30,440 bases of DNA from a virus, in the IMG/VR virus record IMGVR_UViG_3300027770_000019, positions 1 through 30,440 of that record. One strand, given 5' to 3'. The stretch's first letter is position 1. Each line of letters begins with the position of its first letter. The position numbers and the translations under genes are program-made. The notes under the pieces are model-generated. The model did no database searches. It had not been told where the DNA came from and was given only the letters and a program-made list of their open reading frames with translations. Below are positions 20,365 through 29,356 of the stretch, in pieces.

Positions 20365-20826
20365 ATGCTACCAGTATTAACATCAGGTCTTACAAAGACA
20401 CAAATAAAAGTAATAGCTCAATCTTCAATTAATGAGCTTATGAGTAACGGAAGGATATTAGAAGCAGCTGAAGCACTTACAGTAATGGAAAACTTTATTA
20501 AAGAGGTTAGGTCCAGCAAAGAATTTACGGAATATGTAAGGGAAGAAGTAGGTAAGAATGGCAAAGACATAACTAATCCTTCAGGTGCTAAAATAGAACT
20601 AGCTGAAACAGGTACTAAATACGATTATAGCGGCTGCAATGATTCAGCACTTATAGAAGTAGAAAGTAATCTTGTTGAAATAGAAACGCTAATTTCTGAC
20701 CGTAAAGCATGGTTAAAAACAATTCCAGCAGAAGGCATGGAAGTTGTTATCGGTGATGAAATAGTTAGAGTGTACCCACCTACAAAAACATCTACTTCAT
20801 CATACAAAATAACATTAAGCAAATGA
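20365..20826 (+). CDS. Conserved hypothetical next to ERF (153 aa)
   Basis: Follows ERF by 3 bases. N-terminal half is helical (VMENFIKEVRSSKEFTEYVR, about 45-64), then a KIELAETGTKYDYSGCNDS segment (about 80-98) and a long helix with ESNLVEIETLISDRKAWL (about 104-121). Proteins with this layout often accompany ERF or RecT genes in Bacteroidetes phages and probably act in recombination. No enzymatic motif seen. Confidence 0.55.
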   Translation: MLPVLTSGLTKTQIKVIAQSSINELMSNGRILEAAEALTVMENFIKEVRSSKEFTEYVREEVGKNGKDITNPSGAKIELAETGTKYDYSGCNDSALIEVESNLVEIETLISDRKAWLKTIPAEGMEVVIGDEIVRVYPPTKTSTSSYKITLSK

Positions 20827-21053
20827 TATGGATGTATTTAAATACTGAAATCAAAGGAGCTGCAAGTCGCAAAGTATATGGAGTTAGAGGCGATAAGGTC
20901 GCTATATTAGATAACAATATAGAAATGCTACTTGTGCTCCATGAGTCAGGAATAAAGTTCCACATACAAAAAGAATTATTATCACACGAATTTATCCCAA
21001 AAGAAATAAAACATGAAACCAAAAATGAAAGCAAGTCCAAAAAAAGAGTTTAA
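20823..21053 (+). CDS. Hypothetical protein (76 aa), beta-rich start and lysine-rich tail
   Basis: ATG overlaps the preceding stop (ATGA). The first 60 residues look like a small beta fold (KVYGVRGDKVAILDNNIEML, about 17-36); the last 20 are Lys/Glu rich and overlap the next small gene. Function unknown. Confidence 0.6.
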   Translation: MIWMYLNTEIKGAASRKVYGVRGDKVAILDNNIEMLLVLHESGIKFHIQKELLSHEFIPKEIKHETKNESKSKKRV

Positions 21054-21180
21054 GCCAAAGCCATGGTTAGTAAAAGAACCAGGAGAAAAGAAAGTAATGA
21101 TCTACGGTTATGTTAAAGCTAAAAACAAAGCAATAGCAGAAACCACATTTAATGACCTTATAAACTTAAAGCAATGGTAA
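21013..21180 (+). CDS. Small basic protein (55 aa)
   Basis: Begins inside the preceding gene in another frame and ends overlapping the next start at ATGGTAA. Rich in Lys and Pro at the start (MKPKMKASPKKEFKPKPW), then a short folded-looking part (KKVMIYGYVKAKNKAIAET). A nucleic-acid-binding role would fit the charge but is unproven. Confidence 0.5.
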   Translation: MKPKMKASPKKEFKPKPWLVKEPGEKKVMIYGYVKAKNKAIAETTFNDLINLKQW

Positions 21181-21383
21181 GCTTAACTGATAAGAATAAA
21201 AGAATATTAGACCTTGCTAAAAGTGGAATAGATAGACACGACATAGCAGCTTCACTAGGTATAAGCTTTTACAGGGTTAATTTTATTTGTAGCCAATTAT
21301 CAGAATTTATTAATCCGGATATGTTCAATGTTAACGAAGTTGACTGTTGGTTATGTCCTGCAACAAATGAATATCATGATTAA
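21174..21383 (+). CDS. Small helix-turn-helix protein (69 aa)
   Basis: Residues about 8-42 (RILDLAKSGIDRHDIAASLG then ISFYRVNFICSQL) match a LuxR/sigma4-type helix-turn-helix. Possible early regulator. Two cysteines near the end (DCWLCP) could bind zinc. Overlaps its neighbours by a few bases, consistent with an operon. Confidence 0.6.
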   Translation: MVSLTDKNKRILDLAKSGIDRHDIAASLGISFYRVNFICSQLSEFINPDMFNVNEVDCWLCPATNEYHD

Positions 21384-21681
21384 ATTAAACGAAACTATCA
21401 AAATTAAAGTAAAAGATTTACTTGTTAGGCATCCACATTTAAGGGATTCAGATAATAAGTTAATAGCTTCTATTTGGTATAATGAAAGTGAAGAAAGCTT
21501 ACATAATATCACAGCTCATCAATTTCTTAAAAACTTTTGTGCTGGGTATCATTCAAGTCCTGAAAGCATTAGAAGGATAAGACAAAAGATACAGGAACAA
21601 GAAGTAGAATTAAGGGGTAAATCTTACAAGGAACGTAAAGAAAAATCATTAACAATTAAAAAACAAATTAAAACATTATGA
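21367..21681 (+). CDS. Conserved hypothetical (about 104 aa) preceding the DnaA-like gene
   Basis: Start set at ATG 21367; ATG 21376 is nearly equal, and an in-frame TTG/ATG upstream inside the previous gene is less likely. The core LLVRHPHLRDSDNKLIASIW is a common motif in small proteins of Bacteroidetes phage replication regions, and the C-terminal half is a basic helix (SIRRIRQKIQEQEVELRGK). Ends overlapping the next ATG. Probably a replication accessory or DNA-binding protein. Confidence 0.6.
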   Translation: MNIMIKLNETIKIKVKDLLVRHPHLRDSDNKLIASIWYNESEESLHNITAHQFLKNFCAGYHSSPESIRRIRQKIQEQEVELRGKSYKERKEKSLTIKKQIKTL

Positions 21682-22076
21682 ACGAATTAGCTGAATTTTG
21701 CTCACCTTGTGTAGATCATAGGATAGAAGTAAAAACTGAAATATTAAACAGTAATAAGATTATTAATAAGATATGCGATTTTTATAGTGCAAGTCCTTCG
21801 CTAGTTTTAGGACATTTAAGATATAAAAAACTTGTAGAAGCAAGGCATATAATAGCTCATGTATTAAGGCACGATAGGCATTTGGGCATGTCTTTAAAAA
21901 GTATAGCTTTTTTAATGAACCATAGGGATCATGCAACTATTATTCATGCTGTTAAAAAGATTAATAATTATTTAGAAGTAGATGAATTTTTTAGGGAAAA
22001 AGTAAAAAGTATCTATTTAATGGTATATGGTACTTTAAAATATTATCCACATTGGACTGAACAAACAGGATTTTAA
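21678..22076 (+). CDS. Stand-alone DnaA domain IV (DNA-binding) protein
   Basis: This 132-aa protein contains a DnaA C-terminal domain without the ATPase. The helix SLVLGHLRYKKLVEARHIIA (41-60) and the DnaA signature RDHATIIHAVKKI (83-95, equivalent to GRDHTTVLHACRKI of DnaA) are clear. In host DnaA this domain binds the 9-base DnaA box. A perfect box (TTATCCACA) lies inside the 3' end of this same gene at 22043-22051. It could mark the phage origin, load the host replisome, or autoregulate. Confidence 0.85.
   Translation: MNELAEFCSPCVDHRIEVKTEILNSNKIINKICDFYSASPSLVLGHLRYKKLVEARHIIAHVLRHDRHLGMSLKSIAFLMNHRDHATIIHAVKKINNYLEVDEFFREKVKSIYLMVYGTLKYYPHWTEQTGF
22043..22051 (+). promoter_or_regulatory. 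Perfect DnaA box
   Basis: TTATCCACA matches the strong DnaA box consensus 9 of 9. It lies in the last codons of the DnaA-domain gene, about 40 bases upstream of the predicted start of the 22093 transcript, where a bound protein would touch that promoter. Found once on inspection. Confidence 0.7.
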
Positions 22077-22078
22077 TG

Positions 22079-22086
22079 TATATTTG
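22079..22086 (+). promoter_or_regulatory. Promoter -7 box TATATTTG for the small RNA
   Basis: Exact match to TAnnTTTG. The -33 region is poor: the base positions 19-21 before it hold ACTG, so an activator may be needed. Predicted transcription start is 22091-22094, which coincides with the first base of the first hairpin. Confidence 0.6.
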
Positions 22087-22092
22087 CATACA

Positions 22093-22181
22093 ATTTCGTT
22101 TTGAAGTGGTAGTCAAACCGAAATATTTATTTCTAATTAAAGGGGATTGTTAATGCTACCACCATTGATAATCCCTTTTTT
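22093..22181 (+). ncRNA. Candidate two-hairpin RNA with complementary loops (sRNA or attenuator)
   Basis: Hairpin 1: 22093-22104 pairs with 22113-22124 (12 pairs, one mismatch at 22099/22118), 8-base loop AGTGGTAG. A 18-base AU-rich linker follows. Hairpin 2: GGGATTGTTAATG (22143-22155) pairs with CATTGATAATCCC (22163-22175) over 13 pairs (two G-U), 7-base loop CTACCAC, then U6: a terminator. Loop 1 GTGGTAG (22106-22112) is the exact complement of loop 2 CTACCAC (22156-22162). The predicted start, both hairpins and the terminator fit in about 89 nt. It may form a kissing loop, act as a free RNA, or attenuate the replication gene at 22187. Confidence 0.65.
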
Positions 22182-22186
22182 ATTTT

Positions 22187-22861
22187 ATGGCTAAAGATCC
22201 TGCATTTTTATTTTATTCAAATGATTTCCTTACTGGAACTTATTTAATGACTGATGAACAAGTTGGTAAATATATTAGGTTATTATGTTTACAACATCAA
22301 AAAGGTCCATTATCTGAAAAAGATATGTTGAACATATGTAAATCATATGATGAAGACATTTTCGCAAAATTTGAAATAATAGAAAATAAGTTTATAAATA
22401 AAAGATTATATGAAGAATCTGAAAAAAGGAAATCATATAGTGAAAGTAGAAAAAACAATAGAAAGAAAAAAGATATGATAAACATATCTGAATCATATGT
22501 TCAACATATGGAAAATGAAAATGAAAATGAAGATGTAATTATAAATAATAAAATTATAATAAAAAGTAAAAAATTTATTTCTTCAGATTTTAATGAATTA
22601 CCTGAACATTACACAAAATCTATAATTGAACAATTTAAAATTCAAAAACAAAAAACAATTACACAAAAGCAAATAACTGATATTTGGGAAGTATTTAAAA
22701 TTCAGAATCTAACAGGCGAAGAATTTTACACTTCAGAAAATAAAGTTTATCAGCATTTTATAAATTGGATTAAAAAACAAAACTTTGAAAATGGATCTAC
22801 AAAACCTACAGCAGAAGAAAAATTTAACTTCTACAAAAACTACTCCGATAGATTTGATTAG
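22187..22861 (+). CDS. Replication-associated protein (DUF1376-like start)
   Basis: 224-aa protein. The first about 60 residues (DPAFLFYSNDFLTGTYLMTD then KYIRLLCLQHQKGPL) match the start of phage replisome-organiser type proteins in which a winged-helix domain leads. The middle is highly charged, with ENENENED (about 108-115) encoded by a repeated GAAAAT, and a C-terminal helical part (QFKIQKQKTITQKQITDIWE) follows. The ATG lies 5 bases after the terminator T-run, so its expression probably depends on read-through of that hairpin. It likely helps initiate replication, perhaps with the next gene product. Confidence 0.6.
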   Translation: MAKDPAFLFYSNDFLTGTYLMTDEQVGKYIRLLCLQHQKGPLSEKDMLNICKSYDEDIFAKFEIIENKFINKRLYEESEKRKSYSESRKNNRKKKDMINISESYVQHMENENENEDVIINNKIIIKSKKFISSDFNELPEHYTKSIIEQFKIQKQKTITQKQITDIWEVFKIQNLTGEEFYTSENKVYQHFINWIKKQNFENGSTKPTAEEKFNFYKNYSDRFD

Positions 22862-23564
22862 GTCAGCTATTCAATCACAAAAACTATCTGAAGCAAGTGA
22901 TAAAGATTTATCAAAAAGATTTTCTTTAATATTTTGGATGATAGGGTTAAGAAATCATCATGTACCAACTGATGAACAAATGATTCTATTATTTCAATAC
23001 ATAAGAAAAAACTATCCTAACAGGTCAATAAATGAATTAACTTTAGCTTTTGACAAAGCAATAAATAATCAACTTGATGTTGAAGATTATAAACCTTATG
23101 ATCAGTTTACACTAGAATACTTTGTGCGAATATTCAACGCTTACCGGAAATGGTCAGCAATGATGCTAAAAGAATTTGAAAAACCAATAGAACAAAAAAC
23201 TTTACCTATGCCTGAAACAACAGTAAAAGAAATGCAAGAAGATATTAACGAATATTTAAGCAGAAAGGATTTAAACATAAATTTCACTCCGCCATACCTG
23301 TTTGACTATGCTGAAAGATTAGGATTAATAAAACTTTCTAAAGAAGAAAAGATTAACATCTATGAGAAAGCTGCAAGGTTCAGAAAGGAAACTTTATATG
23401 TTCAAGCTCAAAGTTTACGAAAAGAAGATATGATTGAATACAACCAGTTCTGTCAAATGTATGAAGGTGGAGCTAAAAACATCAAAGGAAACGAAGTTAA
23501 TTTACTAAAAAATTTAGCTAAAAAAATAGCTTTCATAGATTATGCAACGAGTAATAAACTTTAG
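22791..23564 (+). CDS. Conserved replication-region protein (257 aa), unknown function
   Basis: Start chosen at ATG 22791; a TTG lies 6 bases upstream in frame. It overlaps the preceding gene by 71 bases. The sequence SLIFWMIGLRNHHVPTDEQM (about 45-64) is followed by RIFNAYRKWSAMMLKEFEKP (about 110-129) and a lysine/glutamate-rich C-terminal helix. No Walker motif is visible, so it is not an ATPase. Position between the replisome-organiser-like gene and the PP-loop gene suggests a helicase loader or primase accessory role, but that is inference. Confidence 0.5.
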   Translation: MDLQNLQQKKNLTSTKTTPIDLIRSAIQSQKLSEASDKDLSKRFSLIFWMIGLRNHHVPTDEQMILLFQYIRKNYPNRSINELTLAFDKAINNQLDVEDYKPYDQFTLEYFVRIFNAYRKWSAMMLKEFEKPIEQKTLPMPETTVKEMQEDINEYLSRKDLNINFTPPYLFDYAERLGLIKLSKEEKINIYEKAARFRKETLYVQAQSLRKEDMIEYNQFCQMYEGGAKNIKGNEVNLLKNLAKKIAFIDYATSNKL

Positions 23565-24267
23565 TGGCGGTAAAACTTCTGCATTTATGACTATTAACGA
23601 ATATCGTAAAGATGATTTAGTTATATTTTGTGATACAGGCAGAGAACATTCAAAAACTTATAAATTTATAAATGATTTTGAAGCTCATGAAGGAATACCA
23701 ATTATAAGATTAAAATATAAAAATTCAGAAAATCCATTTTCAGAACTATTAAAGCACAATAAATATGCAAATATTCCAAATAATATGAAAAGATTTTGTA
23801 CAGTAGAATTAAAAATAAAAACTTGCAGAAGATATTTGCGTAGTATTGGAATAAAGAACTATGAAAATTTTATAGGATTTAGACACGATGAACCTTTAAG
23901 AGTTAAAAGAAGAAAACAAATGTGGAAAGGTGTTATTGATAAATTCCCATTATTTGATAAAGAAATAAATAAAAAAGCAATAAATGAGTATTGGAGTAAA
24001 AAAGAATATAATTTAGAAATACCTTCAATTCTTGGAAATTGTACTCTATGCTTTATGAAAGGTAAAAATGCAGTAATATCAATTTTATCAAGTTATCCTG
24101 AATTAGCTGATGAATGGATTAAAGATGAAGAACAAAATAAAAAAGGTTATACTTATTTTAATGGAATATCTATAAAGCAATTAAGAGATATTGCTAAAAA
24201 TAATTTATTCAAAGATTATGATTTAAACGAAATTAAACCTGCATTTGATTGTGCTTGTACAAATTAA
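23542..24267 (+). CDS. PP-loop ATPase of the PAPS-reductase type
   Basis: 241-aa protein with the PP-loop FSGGKTS (7-13) that activates a substrate by adenylation, followed by IFCDTGREHSKT (about 28-39), typical of the PAPS reductase/DndC-like superfamily. Cysteines at RFCTVELK (about 86), at NCTLCFMKG (about 169-176) and at the end (FDCACTN) could bind a metal or cluster. Genes of this class occur in phages with thio-modified DNA or nucleotides, but no partner (DndA/B/D, IscS) is seen here. Overlaps the preceding gene by 23 bases. Confidence 0.7.
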   Translation: MQRVINFSGGKTSAFMTINEYRKDDLVIFCDTGREHSKTYKFINDFEAHEGIPIIRLKYKNSENPFSELLKHNKYANIPNNMKRFCTVELKIKTCRRYLRSIGIKNYENFIGFRHDEPLRVKRRKQMWKGVIDKFPLFDKEINKKAINEYWSKKEYNLEIPSILGNCTLCFMKGKNAVISILSSYPELADEWIKDEEQNKKGYTYFNGISIKQLRDIAKNNLFKDYDLNEIKPAFDCACTN

Positions 24268-28668: not shown

Positions 28669-28673
28669 GTTAT

Positions 28674-28753
28674 TTTAAGCCAATTTAAGACACTTTAAAT
28701 GAAAAGTAATATAATCTATCACAAAACAAATAAACTACTTTAAATCGCTTTAA
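28674..28753 (+). repeat. Helically phased TTTAA repeats
   Basis: TTTAA at 28674, 28684 and 28694 (spacing 10, 10) and again at 28739 and 28749 (spacing 10). The period is one turn of DNA, so the motifs lie on one face. They fill the gap between terS and the next small gene and could bind a protein or bend the DNA. Confidence 0.6.
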
Positions 28754-28754
28754 A

Positions 28755-28862
28755 ATGGCTAATACTGATTTGATACTTATTCCTTTAATTATTGTTTCCT
28801 TATTTATAGGTGTTGTTCTTTTACTTGATTATTTAAGTGGCAAAGATTATGATAGCGAATGA
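28755..28862 (+). CDS. Single-span membrane peptide (35 aa)
   Basis: MANTDLILIPLIIVSLFIGV then VLLLDYLSGKDYDSE: one hydrophobic helix and an acidic end. ATG follows the last TTTAA repeat and its end overlaps the following gene. A small membrane protein between small and large terminase is unexpected; function unknown. Confidence 0.5.
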   Translation: MANTDLILIPLIIVSLFIGVVLLLDYLSGKDYDSE

Positions 28863-29031
28863 AAGTTGGCAGATAGTTCTTTTCAATTCAGGGAATAATA
28901 CTGAAATTATATTAGGTATGTTATCTGATGAAATAACAACAAGGTATTTATTAATGAGCTTAACGCAGTACAATTTACACAAAGATTATACTTATTATGC
29001 TCGGCACATTCAGATACATAAAATATCCTAA
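28849..29031 (+). CDS. Hypothetical small protein (60 aa)
   Basis: ATG at 28849 overlaps the preceding gene by 14 bases; a GTG at 28837 is also in frame. Sequence ANESWQIVLFNSGNNTEIIL then LMSLTQYNLHKDYTYYARHI. No motif recognised. Confidence 0.45.
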   Translation: MIANESWQIVLFNSGNNTEIILGMLSDEITTRYLLMSLTQYNLHKDYTYYARHIQIHKIS

Positions 29032-29104
29032 TGTGCATTATTATACACAAACTGCAAGGTAAGATGTGCAGAATATAACACAATAACAAAGGAATAAGTA
29101 TTTA

Positions 29105-29173
29105 ATGAATGATAAAAGCGACATTATGAATAAATGGGATGGAATAGAAGATCCTGAAGAAATGAAGGAGTGA
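29105..29173 (+). CDS. Possible micro-protein (22 aa)
   Basis: MNDKSDIMNKWDGIEDPEEM and two more residues; acidic, preceded by AAGTATTTA rather than a Shine-Dalgarno. Too short to judge; listed because the region 29032-29356 otherwise has no gene. Bases 29032-29104 show nothing recognisable. Confidence 0.25.
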   Translation: MNDKSDIMNKWDGIEDPEEMKE

Positions 29174-29210
29174 TTTGCGAAAGGTGCTTAAAATAAGTGC
29201 TTTGTGCAAA

Positions 29211-29284
29211 AAATCACATTATAGTAGGAAATATTCTACAAAAATTAACTTATAGTGGAAAATTTACCATTAAATCACATTATA
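29211..29284 (+). repeat. AAATCACATTATA direct repeat with adjacent near-palindromes
   Basis: The 13-mer is exact at 29211-29223 and 29272-29284. Between the copies lie two related near-palindromes: GTAG...CTAC (29224-29239) and TGGAAAATTTACCA (about 29256-29269), each following TTATAGT. The repeat contains the CATTATA core seen at the start-proximal motifs of late genes. Confidence 0.6.
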
Positions 29285-29348
29285 AATTATATGCGATAGG
29301 GTATAAAATTGACATTTTTCGTCAAATTATATGCGATAGGGTATAAAA
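29284..29348 (+). repeat. 25-bp direct repeat upstream of terL
   Basis: AAATTATATGCGATAGGGTA plus TAAAA occurs at 29284-29308 and 29324-29348, identical over 25 bases with a 40-base period. The spacer holds TTGAC and GTCAA as a small inverted repeat. Each copy contains ATG CGA TAG, a minimal Met-Arg-stop frame. It ends 8 bases before the terL ATG. Candidate operator, packaging-recognition or leader element. Confidence 0.75.
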
Positions 29349-29356
29349 AACAATAA

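Follow-up and report, generated by a model that had tools for sequence, protein, structure and literature searches.

In the 30,440-nucleotide stretch of viral DNA analysed here, referred to as the window (IMG/VR record IMGVR_UViG_3300027770_000019, positions 1 to 30,440), two hairpins with exactly complementary loops lie between a promoter-like sequence and the first codon of a probable replication gene. This arrangement raises the question of whether the hairpins belong to a functional RNA and, if they do, what their loops recognize.

Architecture of the leader

The features of the locus, all on the plus strand, are as follows.

21678..22076, +, upstream gene, DnaA domain IV helix-turn-helix protein of 132 aa (PF08299, E 2.6e-14)
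22079..22086, +, -7 box, TATATTTG, of a putative Bacteroidota sigma-A promoter (sequence; consensus and spacing per PMC9723704 and PMC6847099)
22093..22124, +, hairpin 1 of the leader RNA, 11 bp (fold; stem covariation in 27 elements)
22105..22112, +, loop 1, AGTGGTAG (loop-loop covariation)
22125..22138, +, A/U-rich linker of 14 nt (linker lengths compared across elements)
22139..22179, +, hairpin 2, terminator-like, 17 bp (fold; the sole terminator-like site within 20500-24000)
22156..22162, +, loop 2, CTACCAC (reverse complement of loop 1; covariation)
22176..22186, +, U-tract, TTTTTTATTTT, running up to the start codon (T-rich in related elements vs A-rich before other genes)
22187..22861, +, first gene behind the leader, a weak DUF1376 relative of 224 aa and probable replication protein (open reading frame; PF07120)

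The -7 box of Bacteroidota sigma-A promoters spans positions -12 to -5 (PMC9723704; PMC6847099), so transcription is predicted to start at approximately 22091-22092; a -33 TTG is present at loose spacing only (22052-22054). The untranslated leader would thus be approximately 95 nt long, its ends being inferred in the absence of transcript data. Hairpin 1 pairs 22093-22104 with 22113-22124 with a single T/C mismatch, and GTGGTAG (22106-22112) in its loop is the exact reverse complement of the loop of hairpin 2, the stem of which pairs 22139-22155 with 22163-22179. Six T residues (22176-22181) are followed by ATTTT and then by the ATG at 22187. The minimum free energy of the leader is -27.1 kcal/mol (z = -4.4), and none of 200 shuffles folded equally well.

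A preliminary description of this DNA had pointed to the first hairpin and to the perfect match between the two loops, both of which are borne out by sequence and fold. It had also placed hairpin 2 at 22143-22175; the hairpin, its loop, and the T6 run stand, whereas its extent proved to be larger (22139-22179). The location given there, between a DnaA-like gene and replication genes, is correct as to the neighbors, although the upstream protein corresponds only to the helix-turn-helix of DnaA domain IV and the DUF1376 match downstream is weak. A consensus DnaA box, TTATCCACA, is found at 22043-22051, just 5' of the promoter and within the end of the DnaA domain IV gene; the window contains three such boxes, which is about the chance number, and the box is absent upstream of the leader at locus L005.

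Neighboring genes, phage, and host

All 18 homologs of the 224-aa protein matched PF07120 (DUF1376), with a best E value of 5.8e-6, and because this match is weak, the replication role of the gene rests on family and neighborhood. A fold search with the N-terminus gave no significant match, and a sequence search of the PDB gave none. Other phage genes of the window encode ERF, NinG, lysozyme, portal, and small terminase proteins. The approximately 690 bases (28669-29356) that separate the small terminase gene from a large open frame truncated at the record's edge have no plus-strand open reading frame of more than 64 aa. No tyrosine integrase was found in these phages, which are therefore apparently virulent, although the record may be incomplete. 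Their hosts are probably Bacteroidota, judging from the promoter type and the bacterial relatives of the protein.

DNA comparison with annotated phage genomes yielded no relatives of the window, and protein comparison with the same genomes led from the 224-aa gene to one distant, unannotated record only and from the DnaA-like gene to distant records only; hence, these comparisons did not reveal the element in any cultured phage. Relatives of the 224-aa protein are rare in bacteria (26 loci in 84,980 genomes, and 2 of 395 sampled Bacteroidota genomes), and among the bacterial loci L090 and L094 alone seem to bear a weaker version of the element.

The RNA family and its loop alleles

Homologs of the 224-aa protein were gathered from viral contigs, and many of them have the element upstream; nearly all of the data come from uncultured viral contigs. 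The element of the window is one member of an RNA family that is present in dozens of such contigs, either directly upstream of the DUF1376-like gene or before one or more small genes that precede it. The -7 box lies ahead of 45 of 54 elements, as compared with 2.8% of background places, and in nearly all elements a distance of 20-40 nt separates loop 2 from the ATG downstream. The 12 nt that precede the ATG are 64% T, whereas those before other open reading frames are 29% T and 45% A, and TTTT occurs before the ATG in 78% of the elements vs 6% of the other frames; the U-tract is broken in some elements (L003, L016, and L052). The promoter box and the T-tract that the preliminary description had recognized in the window are accordingly kept in the relatives. 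On the opposite strand, promoter boxes showed no clear enrichment (8 of 54 loci, or 15%, vs 11% in the background), and none was detected near the leader in the window. An antisense transcript from that strand is without support, since minus-strand boxes occur at about the background level.

The loop pairs of the relatives include GTTGCAG/CTGCAAC, GTACGAA/TTCGTAC, GTCGCAT/ATGCGAC, TTAGGCC/GGCCTAA, ATGGTAC/GTACCAT, and GTAGCCG/CGGCTAC, as well as others. At least 33 distinct loop-1 alleles were found, some of them recognized by eye after the detector described below, and every recognized element has perfect loop-loop complementarity of 7 nt (43 elements), 8 nt (8 elements), or 6 nt (3 elements); being so short, the complementarity is confined to the loops. 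For the 27 alleles of 7 nt, the mean difference is 4 of 7 positions. The linker measures approximately 14 nt in most elements. According to the table of linkers, just 25 of 54 elements have a minimum-free-energy fold with both loops unpaired; truncation of some RNA ends and self-complementarity of some loops account for part of this.

Some further features of the loops were noted. Among the 27 alleles of 7 nt, loop 1 is biased toward GT at positions 1-2 (18 and 22 alleles, respectively) and toward A at position 6 (20 alleles), as if geometry or a protein fixed some of the kissing positions. In L006, L007, L034, and L054, and partly in L040, a third copy of loop 1, TCGCAGC, lies between the terminator and the first ATG, so that loop 2 could pair with either loop 1 or the start region; this was seen in that allele group only. 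A longer and more elaborate leader with GGAACC/GGTTCC complementarity (L135:2676-2770) is possibly a second branch of the family, and leaders of this type also occur upstream of the replication gene in L032, L035, L048, and L062.

Covariation and chance

Complementary loops can arise by accident or belong to an inverted repeat of DNA that is bound by a protein, and 7-nt matches between nearby hairpins were indeed encountered 54 times in 2.28 Mb of shuffled sequence under loose criteria. A strict detector, which weighs complementary loops in hairpins together with the promoter box and the T-run, gave 22106/22156 as its sole match in the window. Across 11 phage genomes it returned 14 matches, comprising 9 elements and 5 mirror matches on the opposite strand, vs 1.3 in shuffles, with one element per genome where detected. 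It was blank in G011 and G013, yet G013 (locus L052) does have an element.

As the detector seeks complementarity itself, three checks were designed to avoid this selection. When loci were chosen by protein homology only and hairpins were picked by strength, complementarity between the loops reached 6 or more bases at 23 of 54 loci and did not exceed 5 at the others; the number of loci expected after re-pairing the loops between loci is 1.7. All 98 loop positions are paired in 14 elements that were grouped by the likeness of their hairpin flanks (permutation mean, 59.9; maximum, 84), although the alleles had mostly been seen before. The hairpin ACAGTTAT-N7-ATAACT, a pattern too general for a family scan and used as a control, was located anywhere in viral contigs; a partner loop follows downstream in 4 of the 5 cases with a promoter box and in only 1 of the 73 cases without one.

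A gap-free alignment of 27 distinct elements was used to measure covariation. The loop helix is 100% paired, both partners have changed in six of its seven pairs, and the remaining pair (U-A) is invariant. Its covariation score is 0.868, vs 0.156 (sd 0.031) in shuffles and no more than 0.16 when the helix is slid, and double-change cells number 61 vs 15. Because the alignment was built from recognized elements, complete pairing is partly built in, unlike the number of double changes. Both stems covary as well.

These results leave hardly any doubt that the leader is a real RNA element, and selection on the loop-loop pairing is, as far as aligned sequences can tell, very strongly supported. Chance pairing is already contradicted by the covariation, and a site in DNA that binds a protein would be expected to keep its sequence. 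Both of these explanations also have to face conservation with compensating changes on one strand and at one position, in company with a promoter and a U-tract, and we regard them as practically eliminated. The preliminary description had stated that homologous phages in which the loops vary without remaining complementary would refute it; the outcome was the opposite, as complementarity and compensating changes were found in every recognized element over 33 alleles. Its proposal of a kissing interaction in a small RNA or attenuator thus gains support from the loop-loop covariation, while the choice among a small RNA, a cis attenuator, and a dimer remains unsettled.

Exchange of leaders between conserved flanks

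Closely related loci can carry quite different leaders. L015 and L028 are 97% identical downstream and 90% identical upstream of the leader but only 65% identical within it, and the corresponding values for L140 and L145 are 97%, 86%, and 66%; in both cases, the loop pair differs yet still matches. The leader identity is 49% vs 91% downstream for L034/L155, 49% vs 92% upstream for L006/L155, 79% vs 96% downstream for L162/L183, and 51% vs 87% upstream for the window and L001. In comparison, 34 pairs of loci with a common loop have identities of 0.92 in the leader and 0.89 downstream; the leader is preserved in these pairs as well as the downstream DNA, and it is therefore not simply fast-mutating. 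The window and L005 have an identical hairpin-1 stem, but loop 1 is GTGGTAG in the window and GTAGAAG in L005, with a corresponding change in loop 2.

On the evidence of these comparisons, the leader is an allelic module. The protein encoded behind it is nearly unchanged in the closest pairs and is thus unlikely to read the loop, for which RNA-RNA recognition would be the simplest reader. The exchange of leaders between conserved flanks points to recognition between molecules. Constant switching, on the other hand, is contradicted by large groups that retain a single allele, such as ATGGTAC, which is shared by 9 distinct elements.

Proposed mechanism and alternative explanations

Our proposal starts from what can be read in the sequences, namely, the architecture, the conserved promoter and U-tract, the loop covariation, the single copy per genome, and the allele switching. 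Transcription would start just 5' of hairpin 1, and hairpin 2 with the U-tract would act as a terminator placed after the promoter but ahead of the first start codon, in which position it would allow expression of the operon by read-through only, or from upstream transcription. Most likely, the terminated leader would accumulate as a small RNA, the loops of which would kiss those of further leaders with an identical allele, nascent ones included, and this kissing would set termination or ribosome access and hence the dose of replication proteins, by analogy with P4 CI RNA and plasmid kissing RNAs. Possible roles are the control of copy number or superinfection and of the time at which copying of phage DNA starts. 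That the leader controls the operon seems probable to us, with termination and read-through inferred without transcript data. The fuller model, a conditional-terminator leader of the replication operon that works by loop-loop recognition and whose terminated form acts as a small RNA, is evenly balanced in our judgment, its trans part being inferred. Action between molecules, taken alone, falls slightly short of an even case; the allele switching supports it indirectly, and there are no interaction data. Still more tentative is the idea of a self-incompatibility RNA of virulent phages, in which a leader recognizes only leaders of its own allele by reciprocal kissing over 6-8 bp and shuts the replication operon, which would provide copy-number feedback and allele-specific superinfection exclusion, while selection for escape would drive the turnover of loop pairs. 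As no tyrosine integrase was found, lysogenic immunity of the P4 kind is unlikely, and a role in superinfection or copy control is then an assumption.

Pairing between molecules, rather than only within one, is itself an inference, because an intramolecular kiss would be compatible with the same covariation and would be favored by proximity. In a purely cis-acting leader, the 5' hairpin would kiss hairpin 2 of the same nascent RNA without any intermolecular effect, and the pairing would set the folding of hairpin 2, pausing or termination of the polymerase, or access of ribosomes to the AUG, as in the loop-loop pseudoknot of ColIb-P9 repZ. Both loops indeed lie within one short RNA, the usual linker by rough estimate spans the stacked stems, and the AUG stands directly behind hairpin 2; structure close to the start codon reduces translation in Flavobacterium (PMC6847099), which also counts in favor of this explanation. 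By itself, however, it does not account for the exchange of leaders and loop pairs between flanks that are 86-97% identical, and gradual compensatory drift should leave some imperfect loop pairs, none of which occurs among the recognized elements. We consider control solely in cis possible but rather unlikely.

The loops might instead join copies of the RNA head to tail into a dimer or ring, for packaging or another purpose, so that the location beside replication genes would be incidental. There are precedents in the phi29 pRNA, which assembles via two different complementary loops (PMC7357161), and in the phage RNAs GOLLD and ROOL, which multimerize via kissing loops (PMC12286853). Such a structural RNA is nevertheless improbable here, since the element has a strict location, with the promoter before it and the first ATG of the replication operon after it, hairpin 2 doubles as a terminator, and the leader is very small and lacks an Rfam pRNA match. 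An independent small RNA, the loops of which act on other RNAs of the phage or host with no part in expressing the gene behind it, has in its favor that a promoter and a terminator make a complete small-RNA unit. A foreign target would not account for the covariation between the two loops, and the position ahead of the ATG is conserved; elsewhere in the window, the loop sequences recur as potential trans targets only at near-chance frequency. We give this possibility very little weight.

Comparison with known systems

The leader matched no Rfam family at the gathering score, including C4-type RNA and pRNA, and nothing credible (again, no C4 match) appeared at E values up to 10. A description of such an element was not found in the literature within reach of our search, which did not extend to subscription papers and preprints.

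Among phage RNAs, GOLLD and ROOL comprise hundreds of nucleotides and many conserved helices, whereas the leader has two hairpins in approximately 95 nt and no Rfam match. The prohead RNA of phi29 resembles it in having two different complementary hairpin loops in one small phage RNA, which can join molecules head to tail (PMC7357161), and in nothing more; it is part of a packaging motor and pairs over 4 bp, whereas the leader pairs over 6-8 nt, carries a terminator at the start codon, and matches no pRNA model. Attenuators with intrinsic terminators likewise have a terminator hairpin and a U-tract between the promoter and the first codon, an arrangement met in the window. No alternative antiterminator helix was identified in the leader, the conserved feature of which is instead the loop-loop pairing with the 5' hairpin.

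Plasmid copy-control RNAs, such as ColE1 RNAI/RNAII and RNAI of the I-complex, share with the leader a loop-loop pairing ahead of a replication gene and a specificity that shifts with loop changes, and a few such changes create new compatibility groups in plasmid kissing RNAs (PMC10724649). ColIb-P9 repZ adds pairing between two loops of a single leader. However, the plasmid systems rely on antisense transcription of the opposite strand, for which no promoter is enriched at the phage leaders, and complementarity in the phage leader is limited to the loops rather than covering the whole RNA. With no antisense promoter found, we do not file the leader under counter-transcribed copy-control RNAs.

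If the leader acts between molecules, virulent phages would have RNA compatibility groups like those of plasmids, and replication timing and superinfection exclusion would become directly testable. Because the exchanges involve entire loop pairs, the covariation is unusually clean, and natural alleles are at hand for testing the pairing. In any case, a widespread, unnamed structured RNA is added to probable Bacteroidota phages, the gene control of which is little known.

In setting, the leader resembles the CI RNA of P4 and the C4 RNA of P1 type, small RNAs that are likewise encoded in the untranslated leader region of phage replication operons, the operon function being inferred in the present case. 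By pairing with the leader, the leader-encoded CI RNA ends transcription of the P4 replication operon prematurely (PMC4825925). CI RNA arises by processing of a longer leader, its pairing partners are seqA and seqC, and its role is in lysogeny, whereas the leader described here has two mutually matching loops in a 95-nt unit from promoter to terminator, belongs to phages that look virulent, and has not been shown to act in trans. We would class it as a new variation on the control of replication by leader RNAs, in a family that is so far unnamed.
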